Of a DNA stretch of 44,678 nt, positions 1,508-44,678 are shown piece by piece; the stretch's first letter is position 1, and the number at the start of each line of letters is the position of its first letter. This stretch comes from a virus, in IMG/VR virus record IMGVR_UViG_3300009034_000076, positions 1-44,678 of that record; one strand, given 5' to 3'. The position numbers were made by a program, and so were the translations under genes. Under the pieces are notes generated by a model, which ran no database searches, was not told where the DNA came from, and saw nothing but the letters and a program-made list of their open reading frames with translations.

Positions 1508-1557
1508 TTTGTATATTCTTTATAAAGTCAAATCAAAACCTTGGTTTGGCGTAAATA
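1508..1557 (+). promoter_or_regulatory. Hairpin module E (type I) before gene 1577
   Basis: GTATATTCTTTATAAA precedes GTCAAATC (1527-1534), loop AAAACCTT, GGTTTGGC (1543-1550), then GTAAAT. As RNA the arms pair over 8 bp with two G-U pairs, 10 bp counting AA/UU. It belongs to the same family as 2256-2314 and 3891-3951. Confidence 0.5.
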
Positions 1558-1576
1558 ATGTATGAAGTGGTCTATC

Positions 1577-2322: not shown

Positions 2323-2739
2323 ATGGAATATGTAATTAGAAAATATGGAGGACGTGGATTCTGCTATAATCCTAACAGTGATCGAATAGAATTTAATCAC
2401 GAAGATAACCTTTTAACTGATGAAGAGTTAAGTGAATATTTATGCGACAGTATAATACATGAATATATTCACAAAATACTATATGACATGTTTAATGCTC
2501 GAGTTAGTAAACTTTTTGATCTGGTAGACCATTATTTTCGAAATGAGGAATTGCATGTTAAATATTTAGAAAAATTCAATTCAGAATTAAATTCAGAATG
2601 TCAAAAATATACTTATTCGCAGTGGAAAAAAATGAGAAGCATTGAACAAATTTTAAACAAATGGGATTATACAATATGGGAATTAGCAGAATGCAAAAAA
2701 ATATGCGATAAAAGAATTATCCATAACATGGAGGAATAA
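2323..2739 (+). CDS. Small HExxH protein 1 (putative zinc metallopeptidase)
   Basis: 138 residues. The centre reads IIHEYIH, the HExxH zinc/catalytic signature, followed 14 residues later by FDLVD. Two other small proteins here (2927-3274 and 6032-6361) have the same order: HExxH, 14-15 residues, then FD. The shared Asp could be a third metal ligand as in Asp-type zincins; that is inference. The C-terminal 60 residues are charged and helical. The ATG at 2323 is 8 bases after GGAGG; ATGs at 2308 and 2317 overlap or crowd that site. No signal peptide, so a cytoplasmic protein. A role against host defence or regulators is only a guess. Confidence 0.65.
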   Translation: MEYVIRKYGGRGFCYNPNSDRIEFNHEDNLLTDEELSEYLCDSIIHEYIHKILYDMFNARVSKLFDLVDHYFRNEELHVKYLEKFNSELNSECQKYTYSQWKKMRSIEQILNKWDYTIWELAECKKICDKRIIHNMEE

Positions 2740-2740
2740 A

Positions 2741-2824
2741 ATGAATAGAATTAAATGGATAATGGCTAATAAAAAGGCCAAAACGCTTCAAGATGCACGA
2801 CAGAGAATTATGGAGATTTGGTAA
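2741..2824 (+). CDS. IKWI minipeptide 1
   Basis: 27 residues beginning MNRIKWIM, with TLQDARQR later. It starts one base after the stop of the HExxH gene with GGAGG 6 bases upstream. A paralogue (3278-3361) follows the second HExxH gene and shares IKWI, a Lys at the same place, and TLQ(D/N)AR. Conservation in two cassettes argues that it is translated. Function unknown. Confidence 0.5.
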   Translation: MNRIKWIMANKKAKTLQDARQRIMEIW

Positions 2825-2863
2825 ATGAACAAAATTAAAAAAATTATTCCGTTAAATCTCTTT

Positions 2864-2918
2864 CGTATTTCTTTATCCGGTCTCGGGGCGATCCGGTTCC
2901 GGATATTTTATATGGAGG
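2864..2918 (+). promoter_or_regulatory. Hairpin module C (type II) before HExxH gene 2
   Basis: CGTATTTCTT, then TATCCGG (2874-2880), UC/UU internal loop, TCGGG (2883-2887), loop GCGA, TCCGG (2892-2896), CCGGATA (2899-2905), then GGAGG (2914-2918). Compared with module B the inner helix changes from UCGGG/CCCGA to UCGGG/UCCGG (two G-U pairs), so pairing is kept while sequence changes. Confidence 0.55.
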
Positions 2919-2926
2919 TAAAAATT

Positions 2927-3274
2927 ATGGAAAATGGAATAATTGCCAAAAAAGGGGAATATACCAATGTCAACATAAACATCAAAAAATATCTAGAAGA
3001 CTACCCCGGAGTAAAACACCTCGACGCCGGTGTATTTAACAGAAACGTAAATGGCAAACATCACAAATACACCGAAGATGAAATGATGTTAAATTATGCA
3101 GAAATAATGTCAACATCCAAATCTCATAGTTACAGAAGCGAAGACAAATTTAAAAAACTGTGCATCGCGATAAACCATGAATCCGTTCATATCGCACTAA
3201 GAGAAATTGGCGAAAGAGAAGCATCCCTCGATTTTGATAACATTTGTAATAATTTAGTCGATTACGGGGTATAA
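2927..3274 (+). CDS. Small HExxH protein 2 (putative zinc metallopeptidase)
   Basis: 115 residues. INHESVH carries HExxH, followed after 14 residues by FDNIC, matching the spacing in proteins 1 and 3. The N-terminal part is rich in Asn, Lys and Tyr and differs from its paralogues. I use the ATG at 2927, 8 bases after GGAGG. The frame is also open from 2825, but that stretch would translate the hairpin module; it resembles the start of the 49-residue gene in the next cassette and may be a relic. Probable soluble metalloprotein; substrate unknown. Confidence 0.62.
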   Translation: MENGIIAKKGEYTNVNINIKKYLEDYPGVKHLDAGVFNRNVNGKHHKYTEDEMMLNYAEIMSTSKSHSYRSEDKFKKLCIAINHESVHIALREIGEREASLDFDNICNNLVDYGV

Positions 3275-3277
3275 AAA

Positions 3278-3361
3278 ATGACAAAAATAAAGTGGATTGT
3301 AGATAAAAATATAGTCACGCTCCAAAATGCGCGAAAAAAACCACGGAGGTCTGGTAAATGA
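3278..3361 (+). CDS. IKWI minipeptide 2
   Basis: 27 residues beginning MTKIKWIV with TLQNARKK later, a paralogue of 2741-2824 in the same position after an HExxH gene. Its end diverges to a basic tail (KKPRRSGK). Its TGA overlaps the ATG of the next gene (ATGA), so the two are probably translationally coupled. Confidence 0.5.
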   Translation: MTKIKWIVDKNIVTLQNARKKPRRSGK

Positions 3362-3507
3362 CCAAAAGAAAATATATAACAATTGAAAGCATTGTAGACA
3401 TTATAGAATTCCTCGACAATTTGGGCGGCGGTCAAAGTGACGATCTTGGCAAAGAATGCGAACAGCATTCAAAGACCTTAAAGAAACTGATAACCCTAAT
3501 CTTTTAG
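3358..3507 (+). CDS. Unknown 49-residue protein
   Basis: Begins MTKRKYITIES with an Ile-rich helix, then an acidic Gly-rich turn (NLGGGQSDDLGK) and a Lys/Leu helix. GGAGG lies 8 bases upstream and the start overlaps the preceding stop. The N-terminus resembles the 16-codon ORF at 3957 (MIKKEYI). No family recognised. Confidence 0.5.
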   Translation: MTKRKYITIESIVDIIEFLDNLGGGQSDDLGKECEQHSKTLKKLITLIF

Positions 3508-3512
3508 TCTCT

Positions 3513-3569
3513 TTCGTATTTTTTTATCCGGTCTCGGGATGACCCGATTCCGGATATTCGATATGGAGG
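3513..3569 (+). promoter_or_regulatory. Hairpin module B (type II) before gene 3578
   Basis: TTCGTATTT, then TATCCGG (3525-3531), UC/UU internal loop, TCGGG (3534-3538), loop ATGA, CCCGA (3543-3547), CCGGATA (3550-3556), then GATATGGAGGAAATG shared with module A. The outer helix has 7 bp and the inner 5 bp, all Watson-Crick. Confidence 0.55.
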
Positions 3570-3577
3570 AAATGAAT

Positions 3578-3889
3578 ATGGAATATAAAAAAACGCAATA
3601 TGCAGACCCAGAAAATAATTGGGATTATAGAGCAATAAGTGTCAAAATATATGAGAATGGCCGAATAAAAGAAATTGTCTTTTACACTTTGATAGAGAAT
3701 GGCAAAAGTTCCAAAGGAATTGAGATATTTTCTGGGGAAAACTACATTGTAGATTCAACAAAGAGAAGTCATTCAAGAAGATACAATATTGAAAACTTGC
3801 CAGAAAAATATCAACCATATATCAAAAATTTAATAGACGAATATAATAAAATAAAATGGTCAATGAAAAAATGTGTTAATTCAAATTAA
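3578..3889 (+). CDS. Unknown cassette protein
   Basis: 103 residues, starting MEYKKTQYAD 8 bases after GGAGG. The first half alternates hydrophobic and charged residues as in beta strands (AISVKIYENGRIKEIVFY); the second half is helical and basic. It has no HExxH although it has the same type of leader, so the cassette position carries different cargo here. No family recognised. Confidence 0.55.
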   Translation: MEYKKTQYADPENNWDYRAISVKIYENGRIKEIVFYTLIENGKSSKGIEIFSGENYIVDSTKRSHSRRYNIENLPEKYQPYIKNLIDEYNKIKWSMKKCVNSN

Positions 3890-3890
3890 T

Positions 3891-3951
3891 CTGTATATTT
3901 TTTATAGAGCCAGATCGCGAAATCGGTTTGGCGTAATCAATATATGGAGGT
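3891..3951 (+). promoter_or_regulatory. Hairpin module D (type I)
   Basis: GTATATTTTTTATAGA, then GCCAGATC (3909-3916), loop GCGAAATC, GGTTTGGC (3925-3932), GTAATC and GGAGG (3947-3951). The arms pair over 8 bp, with G-U at two places where module A has A-U or G-C. It follows the stop of gene 3578-3889 directly. Confidence 0.5.
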
Positions 3952-3956
3952 AAAAA

Positions 3957-4007
3957 ATGATAAAAAAAGAATATATAAACAATGAAATAATTTTAAGGGA
4001 GGTGTAA
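3957..4007 (+). CDS. 16-residue leader peptide or cassette remnant
   Basis: MIKKEYI followed by NNEIILREV, with GGAGG 5 bases upstream. It resembles the beginning of the 49-residue protein at 3358. Its last codons form the GGAGG ribosome site of the next gene, so it may act only as a coupling leader. Confidence 0.3.
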   Translation: MIKKEYINNEIILREV

Positions 4008-4009
4008 AA

Positions 4010-4144
4010 ATGGGAATGAACTTCAGGATAGCGGGCATTCTGCCCACGAAGGAAATCGCGGATGAAGTGATGAATATCGCCAAGTGTGCTCTCGTTGCCC
4101 GGAGAGTCAGGGAAATAAGCCAGGACTACCAACAAAGGGAGTGA
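4010..4144 (+). CDS. Small helical protein
   Basis: 44 residues, MGMNFRIAGILPTKEIADEV with a Cys/Ala helix and a basic Arg/Gln tail. GGAGG is 7 bases upstream. It starts a run of tightly packed minigenes up to 4566. No family recognised. Confidence 0.5.
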   Translation: MGMNFRIAGILPTKEIADEVMNIAKCALVARRVREISQDYQQRE

Positions 4145-4149
4145 ACAAA

Positions 4150-4236
4150 ATGACAATTGTAAAATGCAGAAAATGCAATTCGGCAAAACCGGTCTGCCAT
4201 TGCAAAGAGCCGGAGTTTATAAAGGTGGTGATATAG
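4150..4236 (+). CDS. Zinc-ribbon-like minipeptide
   Basis: 28 residues with CRKC at residues 6-9 and CHC at 16-18, enough for one zinc site. GGGAG lies 8 bases upstream. One of many tiny Cys-pair proteins in this genome. Confidence 0.5.
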   Translation: MTIVKCRKCNSAKPVCHCKEPEFIKVVI

Positions 4237-4237
4237 A

Positions 4238-4360
4238 ATGATAGACAAAGCGACATTAAAGAAAATCAAACAGAATAATAAAAAACTTGTTAAATTAGAA
4301 CAACAAAAGGGCATGATACCGAAGACGATTGAGATTTTCTCGGTCAATGCCCTGACATAG
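4238..4360 (+). CDS. Lys-rich small protein
   Basis: 40 residues: a basic Lys/Gln helix followed by a hydrophobic tail (IEIFSVNALT). It starts one base after the previous stop, with a GGTGGTGA-like ribosome site upstream. Function unknown. Confidence 0.45.
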   Translation: MIDKATLKKIKQNNKKLVKLEQQKGMIPKTIEIFSVNALT

Positions 4361-4371
4361 GAGGCGACAAA

Positions 4372-4566
4372 ATGAAGATAAGTAAAAGACAGTTGAACGA
4401 GATAATCGAACTTGTCCATGATTGGTCAGACTTCGAGGTGGAAGTAACCGGGTATCGTGATTATGACGTTGTCCCATATATCGACAAAATGGCCCGAAAG
4501 TGTCTCCTCAAAGAAGTCAACAAAGTGCTAAAACCGGCAAAATGGCTAAGGTTTTTAGGACGGTAA
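4372..4566 (+). CDS. Unknown small protein
   Basis: 64 residues. Its middle (WSDFEVEVTGYRDYDVVPYI) looks like a strand-turn-strand and its ends are basic helices. GGAGG is 7 bases upstream. The stop codon lies inside the left arm of a 10-bp inverted repeat (4564-4573), so the transcript end is structured. Confidence 0.55.
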   Translation: MKISKRQLNEIIELVHDWSDFEVEVTGYRDYDVVPYIDKMARKCLLKEVNKVLKPAKWLRFLGR

Positions 4567-4658
4567 TGCCAGAGCAAAAAGGGGCGCTCTACCTATGTAT
4601 TGTTTTTATTTTACATGTTAGGGTATAGGCCCCTATGTCTATATAAGGTCTGGCATTA
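4564..4658 (+). ncRNA. Long nested hairpin at the end of the minigene run
   Basis: TAATGCCAGA (4564-4573) and TCTGGCATTA (4649-4658) are a perfect 10-bp inverted repeat. Nested inside are GGGGC (4581-4585)/GCCCC (4629-4633), a CTACC / GGGTATAG helix, and TATGTA/TACATG closing a T-rich loop (TTGTTTTTATTT). It overlaps the stop of gene 4372. It could be a terminator, an RNA-stability element or an independent RNA. A TATA-like CTATATAAGG (4639-4648) lies on its 3' side. Confidence 0.5.
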
Positions 4659-4670
4659 CTGTGCTTTGTA

Positions 4671-4729
4671 TCGAGAAAGCTCGAAATTTGAGGCAAAAAA
4701 AGCCCTGTTTTGGGGCAAAACCGGAGGGC
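4671..4729 (+). promoter_or_regulatory. Mutually exclusive leader hairpins
   Basis: TCGAG-AAAG-CTCGA (4671-4684) forms a tight hairpin. Then GCCC (4702-4705) can pair either with GGGC (4713-4716) or, as GCCCT (4702-4706), with AGGGC (4725-4729). The TATA box at 4639-4646 would start RNA near 4668, so this could be a leader with alternative folds. No gene lies in 4567-4867. Confidence 0.35.
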
Positions 4730-4734
4730 AGAAA

Positions 4735-4830
4735 GCTTTATATAACATTAAATTCTGTTTCATAGCATATAAATCTTTCCCCATCCATTTCGTCCCGATT
4801 TTAGGTGAAAAAAACGATAGTATATAAATC
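4735..4830 (+). promoter_or_regulatory. Three successive TATA boxes before gene 4868
   Basis: CTTTATATAAC (near 4736), GCATATAAATCTTTC (4764-4778) and AGTATATAAATCTTTC (4818-4833). The last two are near-identical direct repeats 54 bases apart. The last box would start RNA near 4847, leaving a short leader with GGAGG before the ATG at 4868. Confidence 0.5.
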
Positions 4831-4867
4831 TTTCTGTGCATTTTTGCGCCAAAAAGGAGGAAAAAGC

Positions 4868-5128
4868 ATGAAATATAAGTACAAAAAGAAGATAATAAAG
4901 GAAATCGAAATAGATATTAAGGCTGGAGACGTTCTTGAATGGACCCATGAGGTAAGCGGCGAACAAATCCGCGCCGTGGTCATAAAGGCCGACAAAGAGG
5001 GAATAATCGGATTGTGCTTTTACGATAACAGGGAAGCAAATTATTCAATTCCGCATAAATTGTATTTTTATCCCTATCAATTTCTTGACCGGCTGAGGAA
5101 AATGGAAGATGAGGAATGGGACCAATAA
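4868..5128 (+). CDS. Unknown small beta-rich protein
   Basis: 86 residues. A basic start (MKYKYKKKIIKEIE) is followed by a strand-rich body (AGDVLEWTHE, IRAVVIKAD, GIIGLCFYD) as in SH3-like or OB-like barrels, and an acidic end. The ATG at 4868 follows GGAGG by 7 bases; an open frame from 4805 would read through the promoter. First gene after the triple TATA region. Function unknown. Confidence 0.6.
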   Translation: MKYKYKKKIIKEIEIDIKAGDVLEWTHEVSGEQIRAVVIKADKEGIIGLCFYDNREANYSIPHKLYFYPYQFLDRLRKMEDEEWDQ

Positions 5129-5145
5129 TTGAGGGGGAAAATTGA

Positions 5146-5412
5146 ATGGAGACAAGAATAGAGGTATATGTAAAAAGTAAAGAAAAAGAAAAAGAAAAAA
5201 AAGAGGCTGTTGAGTTTGAAACCGGCGTTTATTCGGTGCAAATCCCGAATGGAGGACGAAGGATACTGGTCGTCCATAAACTTTCTCCCGCTATCCATGT
5301 GATAGATGACGCTGGCCGTATCTACGACATACCCAAACAGGATGCGAACTTGTTCTATCCAAGCATCAAAAAGGTCGACAAATTGACCATTATCGCGGAG
5401 GTGGAGGAATGA
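5146..5412 (+). CDS. Unknown protein, paralogue of 6358-6600
   Basis: 88 residues. A Lys/Glu-rich lead is followed by a conserved body: GVYSV, RRILVVHK, VIDDAGRIY, then an I-x-x-V-D-K-L-T segment ending EVEE. The protein at 6358 shares GxY, RILV, a Lys two residues on, IDxxGxI and the final EV. The pattern suggests a small beta-barrel. Its stop overlaps the next start (ATGA). Confidence 0.6.
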   Translation: METRIEVYVKSKEKEKEKKEAVEFETGVYSVQIPNGGRRILVVHKLSPAIHVIDDAGRIYDIPKQDANLFYPSIKKVDKLTIIAEVEE

Positions 5413-5636
5413 GACCGAAGCTAAAAATACTTCGAGGTGGAATGACGGAAGACATAGCGATGGAGATAGTGGAGGTCGACCCCTGGCGGTTCAAGGTCAG
5501 GAGCACCTCCAACAGACGCAAGTGGCACGAGGTAACGTGGAGGCGGGATAGGACCTTCGCCTGCACCTGCAAGGGATTCAAATACAACGGCGGGAATGAC
5601 AAGCACATTGACGGCGTAAGGGCGATGGTCGAATGA
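5409..5636 (+). CDS. SWIM-like zinc motif protein
   Basis: 75 residues, basic. Near the end it reads FACTCKGFKYNG then NDKH, close to the SWIM motif (CxC, spacer, CxH) but with Lys instead of the third Cys. Upstream strands (WRFKVRSTS, WHEVTWRRD) match the usual SWIM context. SWIM domains bind nucleic acid or protein, so a DNA-linked role is plausible. Coupled by overlap to both neighbours. Confidence 0.5.
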   Translation: MRPKLKILRGGMTEDIAMEIVEVDPWRFKVRSTSNRRKWHEVTWRRDRTFACTCKGFKYNGGNDKHIDGVRAMVE

Positions 5637-5734
5637 TCGGATTTATAGAAGCATTTGTCTTGGGTCTTGGAGCAACATCAGGATATTACGTTGCAACCAT
5701 AGTATATGCCGTCATACGGAAGTTGGTTACATGA
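5633..5734 (+). CDS. Single-span membrane minipeptide
   Basis: 33 residues, mostly one hydrophobic helix (IGFIEAFVLGLGAT through VATIVYAVI) ending RKLVT. Its start overlaps the previous stop and its stop overlaps the next start, so it is translated in a coupled chain. Function unknown. Confidence 0.5.
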   Translation: MIGFIEAFVLGLGATSGYYVATIVYAVIRKLVT

Positions 5735-6039
5735 CTGACCGGAACTTGCGGGGACTCTTCTTCAGAGTCTCCGGCTTCACCCCGGAAGAGACAGACGACA
5801 TAGTCTACAGACAAAAGCAAGTGAAACAGGCATTGGGGCAGCAAAGGGAACGCAGGCGGCAGGAGAAAAAACTTTTAAATATCAGGAAATTTTCAAAGCC
5901 GGCCCCAGGACTGGACGCGGTAATCAAGGCGAAGAAATATATAACAAAAGGAAAAAGGAAAAATAAACCGGAACGGCTGAAAGAGCAAATCCAGTATGGG
6001 CGGGACCTCGCCAAGTGGTGGATGATGCAGCATGAGTGA
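5731..6039 (+). CDS. Basic unknown protein
   Basis: 102 residues with about one third Lys/Arg, including RERRRQEKK and KGKRKNK. The N-terminal segment GLFFRVSGFTPEETDDIVYR could fold as a helix-turn-helix. Probably binds nucleic acid by charge; no family recognised. Overlaps both neighbours by a few bases. Confidence 0.55.
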   Translation: MTDRNLRGLFFRVSGFTPEETDDIVYRQKQVKQALGQQRERRRQEKKLLNIRKFSKPAPGLDAVIKAKKYITKGKRKNKPERLKEQIQYGRDLAKWWMMQHE

Positions 6040-6361
6040 ATATGAATTCTTTTTTGACCCGCGATGGCAATTTAAGCGACCATTGACATATAGTCTGGGA
6101 TTTACGCTTGGAATTAATGATATACATTTAAATATCTATGACATGCATTATCATGCAGAGACAAGAGAAGTTGATTTTGATAATATATTTGCCCAGGGAA
6201 TTTCGCATGAGATACTTCATAACATTTTTAAGAATGTATTTGATGATTTTGTGGCGTATTGCCAGTTCGATAATATTTGTGACAGAAAAAACATTCATTT
6301 TAGACAATGGTTCGGCGGCCTGCCGTGGGTGGTCCGCAGGAAAAAGGAGGAAATAAAATGA
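6032..6361 (+). CDS. Small HExxH protein 3 (putative zinc metallopeptidase)
   Basis: 109 residues. GISHEILH carries HExxH and is followed after 15 residues by FDNICD, nearly the same as FDNIC in protein 2. The first 55 residues are Tyr/His-rich and strand-like. The third copy lies outside the hairpin cassette region, without a module of its own, inside a coupled operon. Likely a cytoplasmic metalloprotein like its paralogues. Confidence 0.62.
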   Translation: MSEYEFFFDPRWQFKRPLTYSLGFTLGINDIHLNIYDMHYHAETREVDFDNIFAQGISHEILHNIFKNVFDDFVAYCQFDNICDRKNIHFRQWFGGLPWVVRRKKEEIK

Positions 6362-9215: not shown

Positions 9216-9602
9216 ATGGAAAATGACGAGTTTTTAAAGATTGTCGAAAACAGACTGATTGTAATTTTAGCCACATTGTCTGAGAAAAATGCGGAATATA
9301 CTCTTGGTGATAATGATAGATTTTCTAATTTCAAGCATAGTGCCAAGATATTTCAATGTTCACCGGAGAAAGCTCTTATTAATTTTTGGGTAAAACATGT
9401 CACTAATGTTCTTGATATGATGGAAGAATTAGATTGTAAATGCGGTGAAGAGGCTTATTGCTTTCCGTCATTTAATCCAGACAAATATATGAAGACTATA
9501 AAAGAAAAAATAGGAGACATAATTAGTTATATGTTAATTTTGGAAGGACTTTTAACGGAAAGATACAAAAGGAATTGTGAATCAAATGACAAAATTCAAT
9601 AA
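9216..9602 (+). CDS. MazG-like / DUF1599-type protein
   Basis: 128 residues, all helical. It reads EKNAEYTLGD, RFSNFKHSA, then WVKHVTNVLDMMEE and a late KEKIGDIISYMLILEGLL. This is the pattern of phage DUF1599-like relatives of the MazG pyrophosphohydrolases, with metal-binding acidic residues in the last helix. It probably hydrolyses or senses (d)NTPs. Start at 9216 fits the promoter at 9166-9196 with almost no leader. Confidence 0.65.
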   Translation: MENDEFLKIVENRLIVILATLSEKNAEYTLGDNDRFSNFKHSAKIFQCSPEKALINFWVKHVTNVLDMMEELDCKCGEEAYCFPSFNPDKYMKTIKEKIGDIISYMLILEGLLTERYKRNCESNDKIQ

Positions 9603-14264: not shown

Positions 14265-14435
14265 ATGATTGAAGTTAAAATAAAATATATGTTAAGTGCA
14301 ACATGCGGAACTACAATGGATAAAGTATTGAATCTGGCTATCGATAAGCTTTTACACCATAAAGCAGATATCGTTGAATTTGAGTTCAATGACTATAAAT
14401 ATAAAATAACAAAGGAAAAGATAGACAAATGGTAG
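14265..14435 (+). CDS. Unknown small protein
   Basis: 56 residues. Strand, helix, strand pattern (IEVKIKYML, DKVLNLAIDKLLHH, DIVEFEFNDYKYKI). GAGG lies about 8 bases upstream. Overlaps the LicD-like gene by 7 bases. Confidence 0.45.
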   Translation: MIEVKIKYMLSATCGTTMDKVLNLAIDKLLHHKADIVEFEFNDYKYKITKEKIDKW

Positions 14436-15025
14436 AGCACAAGTGGATTAAAGAATCATTAATAGCATTCAAAAAGGTCATGGGAAAGAATGGAATTCCA
14501 TTCTGGCTCGAATATGGAACGCAGCTTGGAGCAGTGAGAGATGGAGAGATTATCCCATGGGACTTGGATGGGGATGTCGGAGTCTGGCTGAAGGACATAC
14601 CTAGAATGAAGGATGCCGAACAGGATTTTCGAGCAAACGGAATGTACATAGCATTTCAGCCAGGGCATGCCTTTCTGAACTACATGGTGGCCAAGGAGAA
14701 GAAGGTCTATCTGGCCACCTTGGACATTTACACTTTTACATTCAAGGAATACAAGAAGAAGGTATGGTTGGTCAGAATAGAGAACGGCGAGACATATGAC
14801 GTGAGGTCTCCGGGGCGATATTACCTGACCTTTAGAATTATCAAGCTATTTGGCGAGCTGTTCCATGTCCCGACTGAGGCCGAGAAGGCGCTCGAGTTCG
14901 CATACGGGAAGGAATGGAGAACCCCGATAAAGAAGGCCGGGGTATCCATCCAGATCGGCAAGCTTACGCCCAGGCAGTTGAACAAGGGCGGAAGGACTCA
15001 TCACAAGAAACTGGAGGATTTGTAA
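14429..15025 (+). CDS. LicD-family phosphotransferase
   Basis: 198 residues. FWLEYGTQLGAVRDGEIIPW then DLDGDVGVW is the LicD/fukutin-type nucleotidyltransferase signature, with the metal-binding DxD in DLDGD. LicD proteins move phosphocholine (or a similar phospho-alcohol) from a CDP carrier to a glycan. The gene ends directly before a cytidylyltransferase that could supply that carrier. C-terminal 50 residues are basic. Probably decorates host or virion glycans; the exact group is unknown. Confidence 0.8.
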   Translation: MVEHKWIKESLIAFKKVMGKNGIPFWLEYGTQLGAVRDGEIIPWDLDGDVGVWLKDIPRMKDAEQDFRANGMYIAFQPGHAFLNYMVAKEKKVYLATLDIYTFTFKEYKKKVWLVRIENGETYDVRSPGRYYLTFRIIKLFGELFHVPTEAEKALEFAYGKEWRTPIKKAGVSIQIGKLTPRQLNKGGRTHHKKLEDL

Positions 15026-15439
15026 ATGAAGACAGGAATAATATTCGGATGCTGGGACCTCTTTCATGTCGGACACCTCAGGGTGCTCAAGAAGGCGAGT
15101 TTTTATTGCGACAAGCTGTACATAGGTGTCTTCTCTGATTCTGTAGTAGAGAAATACAAAGGGGAACGTCCGATAATTTCTGAAAGGGACAGGTGGGAGA
15201 TAGTCCATAGCCTCAAACTGGATTGCCCCGTAGCGGCAGTTATCGTAAACGAAAGAAAACCCCAGAATCTGATGGTCGACTACCTATTTGTCAGCGAGAG
15301 ATTGAAAGACAAAAAATTACACATGATAGATGACTGCTTCAGGGGTAAAGTAGTCTATCTTGAATACACTGCTCGGATATCAGGTAATTCGATTAAACGC
15401 CAGATAAGATTAAGAACCCTGGGACAAAAGTATGATTAA
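15026..15439 (+). CDS. Cytidylyltransferase (TagD / choline-phosphate type)
   Basis: 137 residues. GCWDLFHVGHLRVLKKA carries the HxGH site, and ISGNSIKRQIR the C-terminal ISxxxIxxRI site of the TagD/choline-phosphate/FAD-synthase family; ISERDRWEIV is the usual middle helix. It makes CDP-activated alcohols from CTP and a phospho-alcohol. It starts right after licD's stop, so the pair probably works in sequence. Substrate cannot be read from the sequence. Confidence 0.85.
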   Translation: MKTGIIFGCWDLFHVGHLRVLKKASFYCDKLYIGVFSDSVVEKYKGERPIISERDRWEIVHSLKLDCPVAAVIVNERKPQNLMVDYLFVSERLKDKKLHMIDDCFRGKVVYLEYTARISGNSIKRQIRLRTLGQKYD

Positions 15440-16025
15440 AGAACGTTATAAAATTACTTATAAAGATTTTCTCATGCTGAAAAAAACAGGTAAACAGAAA
15501 AATACCAAGCTGGCTAAATACGACTTTACGAATACAATAGTTATAAAACCTTGGGGAATGGAATATTTGTTTATGGAAAATAAGGAATGCTGTGGATGGA
15601 TGCTCCATATCAATAAGCATTATGGGACATCTCTCCATTGTCACAGGACAAAACAGACTGCGGTATATGTCATAAGCGGAATACTGCTCTTGACAACAAT
15701 AAGAAAGAGACAATTGCTGCAACCAGGCGACATGGTGCTGATAGACAAAGAGGTATTTCATGCTATGGGAGCCATGAAAGACGATACGAGGGTGATAGAA
15801 CTTGAGATGCTATCCAGCAAAACCGATTCGATAAGGGCCGTGGATTACTGGAAACGGACGGGAGAACCCTATGAGTCAAAATGTCTTTTAATGACACTCC
15901 AAAATAAAAAATTAGATTTCAAAAAATTTGAGTTAGCAATGAAAGAAGTTTATGAAATTTTTACACAAAGCAATAAATCCTCCGTTAAGAAGGAGAGGGA
16001 TAAAGGAAAAGAGGTAAAAACCTGA
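15432..16025 (+). CDS. Cupin protein, sugar-phosphate isomerase-like
   Basis: 197 residues. IVIKPWGMEYLF, SLHCHRTKQTAVYVISG and LQPGDMVLIDKEVFHAMGA form one cupin barrel; the two His, Lys/Thr-Gln and the later His fit the metal site. The KPWG opening is typical of the cupin part of mannose-6-phosphate isomerase/GDP-mannose pyrophosphorylase. C-terminal 50 residues are basic and disordered. It overlaps the cytidylyltransferase by 8 bases, so it belongs to the same modification module. It ends the left + operon. Confidence 0.75.
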   Translation: MIKERYKITYKDFLMLKKTGKQKNTKLAKYDFTNTIVIKPWGMEYLFMENKECCGWMLHINKHYGTSLHCHRTKQTAVYVISGILLLTTIRKRQLLQPGDMVLIDKEVFHAMGAMKDDTRVIELEMLSSKTDSIRAVDYWKRTGEPYESKCLLMTLQNKKLDFKKFELAMKEVYEIFTQSNKSSVKKERDKGKEVKT

Positions 16026-40142: not shown

Positions 40143-40288
40143 TTCATAGGTGTTCCGAATGCAAGAGAAAGATGATATGGGTCGAGGACACTCTCTTCTG
40201 CCCGAAATGCGATGCCATGACAATATGGGAATTGGCACAAGAAAGACAACTGAAGAAGAACCCTCATGCCTGGAATGGATTTAAATGA
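40139..40288 (+). CDS. Zinc-ribbon minipeptide
   Basis: 49 residues with CSEC (5-8) and CPKC (23-26), then an acidic/basic helix with WELAQERQLKK. Overlaps both neighbours. Another single-ribbon protein. Confidence 0.55.
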   Translation: MIHRCSECKRKMIWVEDTLFCPKCDAMTIWELAQERQLKKNPHAWNGFK

Positions 40289-41229
40289 ACATATTGAATT
40301 CCATAGGAAATACACCATTAGTCGAGATAGAGAACATTTGGAAATCCGACAAGGTGAGAATCTTCGCGAAAGTCGAGGGAATGAATCCGGGGGGCTCAAT
40401 CAAAGACAGGATTGCCTTGTTCATGATTCAAAAGGCGATTCGGCAAAAGGAGCTGCAGCCGAAAATGAATGTTATTGAAGCAACATCCGGTAATACTGCA
40501 ATAGGTTTGGCAATGGTTTGTTCAGTTCTTGGATATCCATGTAATTTAGTTATGCCTAAGAATATCTCCAAAGAGCGAATTCAAATATGTAAAGCATATG
40601 GTGCAGGTATTCTATTAGTCAATGGAAACATGGATAATGCTATTGCTTATGTAGAAAGAATTATGAGAAATAAAGAATATTCTTATAATTTTTATAACCC
40701 AAATCAATTCTATAATTCTAATAATTGGAAAGCGCATTATAATAGTACTGGACCAGAAATAACACTACAACTTGGAAAGATATTTCATTGGGCAGAATAT
40801 AATTACAACATGAATCCAACACACTTTATTTCTGCTATCGGTACAACTGGTACGATAATGGGATGCTCAATGTGGTTTAAAGATAATTACTTTAGTCAAC
40901 AACATTTTCTGAATGATATATATCGCACTAAGATAATTGCCGTATCTCCATCAAAAGACAGTAAGATACAAGGTCTGAAAAATTTACAATTCTCGAGAAT
41001 ACCGAAAATATACAATTCTAGACTCATAGACAAGACCATAACAGTCAAAGACGAAGACGCATTCAAGATGACAAAGCAATTGGCGAAGAAAGAAGGATTG
41101 TTCTGCGGTGTATCAAGCGGAGCGGCGATGGATATTGCAATCAAGGTAGCAAAACAGCTCGATTCAGGTATCATTGCGGTAATATTGCCCGATAATGGCT
41201 ACCGTTATCTGTCAGAAAAGGTATTCTGA
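40285..41229 (+). CDS. cysK: Cysteine synthase (PLP-dependent)
   Basis: 314 residues. SIGNTPLVEIENI, GGSIKDRIAL (PLP-binding Lys), ATSGNTAIGLAM (substrate Ser/Thr loop), AIGTTGTIMG (phosphate loop), FCGVSSGAAMDIA and LPDNGYRYLS are all present, so it looks active. It makes cysteine from an activated serine and sulphide. As a viral gene it is probably auxiliary metabolism; cysteine could serve the Cys-rich virion. Within the family I cannot choose between O-acetylserine and O-phosphoserine types. Confidence 0.92.
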   Translation: MNILNSIGNTPLVEIENIWKSDKVRIFAKVEGMNPGGSIKDRIALFMIQKAIRQKELQPKMNVIEATSGNTAIGLAMVCSVLGYPCNLVMPKNISKERIQICKAYGAGILLVNGNMDNAIAYVERIMRNKEYSYNFYNPNQFYNSNNWKAHYNSTGPEITLQLGKIFHWAEYNYNMNPTHFISAIGTTGTIMGCSMWFKDNYFSQQHFLNDIYRTKIIAVSPSKDSKIQGLKNLQFSRIPKIYNSRLIDKTITVKDEDAFKMTKQLAKKEGLFCGVSSGAAMDIAIKVAKQLDSGIIAVILPDNGYRYLSEKVF

Positions 41230-44155: not shown

Positions 44156-44674
44156 ATGAAAAAATATACCACATATATAACAGAAATAGATTTAGGAGTT
44201 GCTGACCAAGATTATATAAGACACAGATTGATAAGACGCTTTTTTTCTGTATTAAGGAAACTTGGTACCGCGATGTACATGGAATACAACCGTTCAAGCA
44301 ACAAATACGAAATTCGGTTTTTTGATGAAAAACTGGAGGATGAAGTACAGTTATTGGCTAAGAGCATAGTCAAAAACACCGAACGGCTGGAGACCCTCGC
44401 GTCAGACCTACTCATCCTCGGTGTAAATATAGAGATTATTATTCAATTCCCAAGAGATTTATATTCTGCTATAAGTATAAAGAGACAACAAAGATTGGAG
44501 CAAAATAGGAATCCTAATTTATTAGTTCTTTGGACAGGATATAAAATGTTCTTTGATGATATTATCAATAGTTATGGTGCATATGGTAGAATAATTAACA
44601 AAGATATTCCTTTAAAGTTTATGGGATTGAATGTCTGGTGGACTGATATTCCAGATACGATTGAGGTATTTTAG
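44156..44674 (+). CDS. Unknown 172-residue protein across the map junction
   Basis: Complete here; the last 115 bases are repeated at 1-115. A helical N-terminal half (RHRLIRRFFSVLRKLGT), a strand-rich centre (NKYEIRFFDEKLEDEVQLL, GVNIEIIIQFP), and an aromatic end (LNVWWTDIPDTIEVF). GGAG lies about 8 bases upstream of the start. No family recognised. Confidence 0.6.
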   Translation: MKKYTTYITEIDLGVADQDYIRHRLIRRFFSVLRKLGTAMYMEYNRSSNKYEIRFFDEKLEDEVQLLAKSIVKNTERLETLASDLLILGVNIEIIIQFPRDLYSAISIKRQQRLEQNRNPNLLVLWTGYKMFFDDIINSYGAYGRIINKDIPLKFMGLNVWWTDIPDTIEVF

Positions 44675-44678
44675 GATG
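44560..44678. repeat. Terminal direct repeat, right copy
   Basis: Identical to 1-119. The bases 5' of it (44550-44559) continue the gene 44156-44674, whereas the left end has no upstream sequence, so the right copy is the natural context. Confidence 0.95.

Follow-up and report, generated by a model that had tools for sequence, protein, structure and literature searches.

Three small HExxH proteins and their relatives

The 44,678-nucleotide (nt) virus record IMGVR_UViG_3300009034_000076 of IMG/VR, analysed here over its whole length and called the window below, encodes three small plus-strand proteins, A, B and C, in which an HExxH motif is followed at a nearly constant distance by Phe-Asp (FD). 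Protein A (138 amino acids [aa], 2323–2739) carries HEYIH at aa 46–50 (nt 2458–2472) and, 14 residues on, FDLVD, with FD at aa 65–66 (nt 2515–2520); a C-terminal extension of about 70 aa follows. Protein B (115 aa, 2927–3274) has HESVH at aa 84–88 (nt 3176–3190) and, again after 14 residues, FDNIC, with FD at aa 103–104 (nt 3233–3238). In protein C (109 aa, 6032–6361), HEILH at aa 59–63 (nt 6206–6220) is separated by 15 residues from FDNIC at aa 79–83; a second FD (FDD, gap 6) is unrelated to this site, and the C-terminal GGLPW is common to C and its relative in another virus, G003. A sequence-only reading of the window had proposed from this spacing a small, possibly new zinc-protease-like family with Asp as third ligand, and the spacing proved to be more than an accident of composition: when the residues after HExxH were shuffled, FD fell at gap 14 or 15 with p = 0.015 (A), 0.009 (B) and 0.031 (C), and in all three proteins together in 0 of 200,000 trials. 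The strong divergence outside the motif was also borne out, A and B each being only about 17% identical to C. By all-against-all BLAST the nearest relative of each lies in a different virus: G012_a for A (33% over 82 aa), L011:9125–9448 in G008 for B (32% over 74 aa), and a G003 protein for C (35% over 75 aa).

Relatives were sought by scanning an HExxH-x14-FDNI DNA pattern over IMG/VR (2.9 million viral contigs). This gave 13 stretches, of which nine loci (10 matches) were small open reading frames (ORFs) of one type and the rest clear misfits. An x15 version of the pattern, with two hydrophobic constraints that the nine x14 loci also satisfy, had no match in IMG/VR. Because the x14 scan returned family loci and the x15 scan none, x14 is the family spacing and protein C a one-residue exception. 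A second DNA pattern, ending in FDN, brought in more members, and a profile of 16 members, searched against the virus records those members came from, found at least one member in 15 of 15 records together with extra copies outside the profile (E values 5e-13 to 3e-6; for example three in G012 and four in G009). In total the family has 24 members in 15 virus records, with one to four copies each and often two to four; G005/G009 and G002/G004 are near-duplicate records, which leaves about 13 independent viruses. The family thus reaches far beyond the window.

A hidden Markov model (HMM) built without the window sequences and searched against every window ORF of 45 aa or more picks exactly A, B and C (E 4e-11 to 5e-13), aligned over 70–80 residues. 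Since it finds exactly these three, they are, by this sequence test, true homologues. The very low overall identity might suggest a chance resemblance among unrelated small proteins, but the long leave-out alignments, the specific spacing and the BLAST links all speak against it; with the empty x15 control and the leave-out HMM, this explanation was rejected and can practically be discounted.

In the 24-member alignment (members of about 90–145 aa, mean column identity 16%) the only invariant columns are Met1 and the H, E, H and D of the shared site. The residue preceding D is aromatic or Leu ([FYWL]D), and the position after it is mostly Asn. HExxH, the motif by which zincins (MEROPS clan MA) are defined, is present in 24 of 24 aligned members; most members were collected through it, and the paralogues found by profile keep it too, except L052 (1480–1941, minus strand, virus G001), in which HKETN replaces HExxH and YDNI is retained. 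Judged from these residues, L052 is probably an inactive copy. The family tree is mostly unresolved. No significant match to the family was found in phage and plasmid collections, and protein C alone as query recovered no relatives. A GTDB scan with a narrow FDNIC pattern returned just two chance-like matches (Romboutsia, Bacteriovoracaceae), weak evidence given that FDNIC is rare among members. On the same virus fragment as one family member, L010 11321–11737 (minus strand) encodes a different, membrane-like HELGH protein.

Predicted fold and proposed metal site

AlphaFold2 was run with the 24 family sequences and without zinc, giving models of A and C that share one common arrangement. In the model of A, three strands are followed by a long HExxH-bearing helix and then by one that carries the Asp; the model of C ends in the same way, with HExxH on helix 49–70 and FD on helix 73–83. 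In both, the HExxH/FD region is predicted with a local distance difference test score (pLDDT) of about 85–94, while the tails are poor and the predicted template modelling score (pTM) is about 0.6. A zincin core comprises three strands, an HEXXH helix and a ligand helix (PMC5512222), and the predicted folds of A and C fit this description. When the model of A was compared with the PDB by Foldseek, the first entries were PprI/IrrE, selecase, abylysin and jannalysin (E 0.5–2.7), all of them HExxH proteins; in BFVD, IrrE-like, PolyVal metallopeptidase, peptidase and SprT-like models were among the matches. No match in either set reached significance. Because the Asp is invariant and its helix follows the HExxH helix in the models, it is probably the third zinc ligand. 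The three strands would pack against the HExxH helix, the two His of the motif would bind zinc while the Glu activated water, and the third ligand, usually a Glu, would here be the invariant Asp, located 14 residues past the motif on the following helix.

Comparison with known families

Searches of A, B and C against Pfam, PHROGs, NCBIfam and PADLOC gave no match at or above threshold, and the family profile searched against PDB sequences met only dipeptidyl-peptidase III (E 1.5). When all 24 members were compared with the libraries, matches were scattered and none was common to the members. The family is therefore undescribed in the libraries searched, and the lack of a Pfam match for A, B and C, to aspzincins or any other family, is consistent with the novelty that had been suspected.

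Of the named sets, PHROG 1365 comes closest; its proteins, of about 110–127 aa, are unannotated, belong to bacterial phages and turned up in the same pattern scans (L023, L028, L059, L065). Both sets have HExxH-x14-[FY]DN at the same positions, and hhalign of the two alignments gave E 2e-5 and a probability of 77% over 26 columns. However, PHROG 1365 has an invariant Glu at Asp+3, which makes its motif HExxH-x18-E, and an AYLxG-like helix, whereas the family has no conserved Glu there; in hmmscan against PHROG 1365 no archaeal-virus member matches significantly. In the PHROG 1365 proteins the Asp may accordingly not be a ligand, and the same could hold for the family: with the same fold, a second-shell Asp, and zinc held by the two His plus one other group (a water, a carboxylate or the FDNIC cysteine that some members have), the proteins would be weak or latent enzymes, much as a minimal Glu-zincin showed no activity when described (PMC3890501). 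However, archaeal-virus members vary at the position of that Glu (with Cys, Phe, Ala, Ser and others), leaving Asp as the sole invariant candidate, and we consider a second-shell Asp doubtful.

Minigluzincins (abylysin, jannalysin/selecase; provisionally MEROPS M95) are likewise minimal zincins, of about 105 aa, and appear near the top of the structural neighbours of A, with a template modelling score to the target of up to 0.47. Their third ligand is Glu, whereas the family has no invariant Glu beyond HExxH and an invariant Asp instead, and no sequence match between them and the family was found. The mini Asp-zincins of PF06262 (Acel_2062, DUF1025) and the M35 aspzincins combine HExxH with an Asp third ligand, as proposed here. 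Asp-zincin motifs have been defined as HEXXHXXGXXD and GTXDXXYG (PMC3890501, PMC3938660). The first does not occur in the 24-member alignment, which has no Gly or Asp at those positions and places its Asp 16 residues past the second His; in place of the second, that of M35, the family has FD[N]x[x], and there is no Pfam match. That neither defined motif fits is a reservation to be attached to the Asp-zincin label, and membership in the known Asp-zincins or minigluzincins was rejected on these motif comparisons.

The zincin-like metallopeptidase (MPTase) domains of polyvalent proteins, including ArdC, have three strands, an HEXXH helix and a ligand helix (PMC5512222), like the arrangement predicted for A and C, but they use a Glu ligand and sit inside large multidomain proteins, whereas the family has Asp and consists of stand-alone mini proteins except for a 217-aa fusion in G003. 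ImmA/IrrE proteins share an HExxH helix and a weak structural resemblance, without a Pfam match above the cut-off. SprT proteins also have an HExxH helix, and family members show a sub-threshold profile match to them. Two members have weak SprT-like matches (E 0.04–0.07) and the HExxH genes lie beside replication genes, as would suit SprT-like helpers that clear protein crosslinks during viral DNA replication. However, the SprT-like matches fall under the curated cut-off (PF10263, 13.4 bits against 25.6), and a housekeeping role leaves three or four divergent copies per virus unexplained, so that such a function seems very unlikely.

Genomic context and hosts

An exact 119-nt terminal direct repeat (1–119 and 44560–44678) indicates that the window genome is probably complete, circularly assembled, and circular or permuted. 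Besides a weak capsid match, it has genes for a large terminase subunit, a primase-helicase, ThyX and a DNA polymerase of family A. Genes common to the window and G003 include terminase, portal-position, capsid, tape-measure-like and other genes, mostly at 45–78% identity. G001, G005, G008 and G012 are more distant relatives, G007 has a related terminase, and structural genes among the related viruses are kept at 30–78%. In the window and five fully compared relatives, HExxH genes are found no more than a few kb upstream of a conserved gene at window position 9577, in a shared region that adjoins replication genes and in which the number, order and subtype of HExxH genes vary. Identity between protein C and its relative in G003 is 35%, against 45–78% for most other genes common to that pair. 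The family also occurs in viruses without a clearly related terminase (G002, G006, G010, G011 and G014; G013 has a marginal match only). The HExxH genes are thus patchy, multi-copy and fast-diverging.

The hosts of the tailed viruses that bear the family are probably archaea, and we infer the same for the window's own host, because Hjc matches occur in five related records (G001, G005, G008, G009 and G012; two of the five above the curated cut-off), an MCM helicase match occurs in G013, and TATA boxes are enriched in the window (13 observed against 5 expected). MCM models match bacterial genomes too, which makes this a softer archaeal marker than Hjc. None of the archaeal marker genes tested was found in the window, and PCNA, tried as an archaeal marker, was absent.

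Two further features of the window were recorded. A PLP-dependent cysteine-synthase-like gene at 40285–41229 is kept in five of five compared relatives (34–62%). At 14429–16025, a LicD-like gene, a cytidylyltransferase-like gene and a third gene that by its appearance looks like a cupin stand in a row, an arrangement common to G003; a role in sugar- or phosphocholine-type modification of the virion or cell surface is possible.

Leaders, minipeptides and a partner gene

Five related leaders precede small accessory genes in the window (1510–1567, 2257–2322, 2859–2926, 3510–3573 and 3892–3956), each with a TATA-like box, an imperfect palindrome that varies in sequence between copies, and GGAGG as a Shine-Dalgarno sequence. 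The plus-strand leader of A (2257–2322) has a TTTATAAAG box, a GTCAAGTC...GATTTGAC palindrome and GGAGG; that of B (2859–2926, plus strand) has a TTTAT box, an imperfect CCGG...CCGG palindrome and GGAGG. The palindromes could be operators or 5′ hairpins. A is followed by a 27-aa plus-strand IKWI minipeptide at 2741–2824 (MNRIKWIMANKKAKTLQDARQRIMEIW) and B by a second, also of 27 aa and on the plus strand, at 3278–3361 (MTKIKWIVDKNIVTLQNARKKPRRSGK), whose tail, beyond an A7 run, is in a different frame from that of the first copy. The hairpin cassettes that the sequence-only reading had described, each followed by an IKWI peptide, are thus present for both A and B as a palindromic leader and a minipeptide; in the related viruses IKWI peptides were found nowhere, and the peptide was rejected as a general partner or inhibitor of the family on that ground.

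These leaders bear on the main functional rival to counter-defence, cleavage of a regulator in the manner of IrrE/ImmA. Proteases of that kind would cut a repressor and so switch viral or host transcription, the repressor perhaps sitting on the palindromic leaders of A and B. The sharing of palindromic TATA leaders by A, B and three neighbouring units fits this proposal, as do the first PDB neighbour of A in Foldseek (IrrE/PprI) and the IrrE-like models in BFVD. However, IrrE Pfam models give no match, the gene of protein C has no such leader and the leader data come from the window only; we regard this mode of action as rather unlikely.

The gene of C has a neighbour of its own, which encodes a 102-aa partner protein (5731–6039, plus strand) with a C-terminal QIQYGxxLAxWWxxQH and shares 8 nt with the start of the C gene. 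The partner protein and the HExxH domain are fused in the 217-aa ORF of G003 (L081 975–1628), and in G008 a partner-related gene lies adjacent to, and downstream of, the HExxH gene. This overlap, fusion and adjacency suggest that the partner protein and proteins of the C type may act jointly, the partner perhaps directing C to its target or regulating it. A search aimed at the partner protein's own relatives came up empty.

Possible roles of the family

Our preferred reading is that A, B and C belong to an undescribed family of minimal Asp zincins of tailed viruses that would act as early accessory proteases, a view that we hold with about even credence. Being small, encoded in the early, replication-side region, present in several divergent copies and scattered among viruses, they look like accessory effectors directed at the host rather than components of the virion or of replication. 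In situations of conflict, phages and conjugative elements carry polyvalent proteins with MPTase domains (PMC5512222), and this precedent, ArdC included, makes protease-based counter-defence plausible. By this analogy, small proteases expressed early could cut host defence or regulatory proteins, in counter-defence or takeover, and a diversified set would be retained because targets differ between hosts; this role is possible, though we credit it somewhat less than the family assignment. A bolder version, in which a zincin subclass with Asp on the second ('glutamate') helix has expanded in archaeal tailed viruses as an arsenal of one-domain, defence-destroying proteases, seems to us doubtful.

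Several observations weigh against the family as Asp zincins with a protease role. The mean pLDDT is just 71, predictions are limited to A and C, and the Asp assignment comes from invariance and helix order. All Foldseek matches of A are insignificant (best E 0.5 in the PDB and 0.12 in BFVD), as is the top match of C, to YbeY (E 1.4–3). Protein C departs by one residue from the x14 spacing, defence libraries gave no match, and the existence of the HExxH-less L052 implies that catalysis may be dispensable in some cases.

Little is known of the proteins by which archaeal tailed viruses counter host defences or take over the cell, and the family, as a recurrent and diversified set of putative mini proteases from one fixed region of the genome, offers a testable list of candidates, 24 sequences with one motif. 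If the proposed site is correct, a zincin of about 100 aa whose second helix provides an Asp as third ligand would add a new ligand arrangement, and with the Glu-bearing PHROG 1365 relatives it would be a natural example of a ligand exchanged inside a single superfamily.

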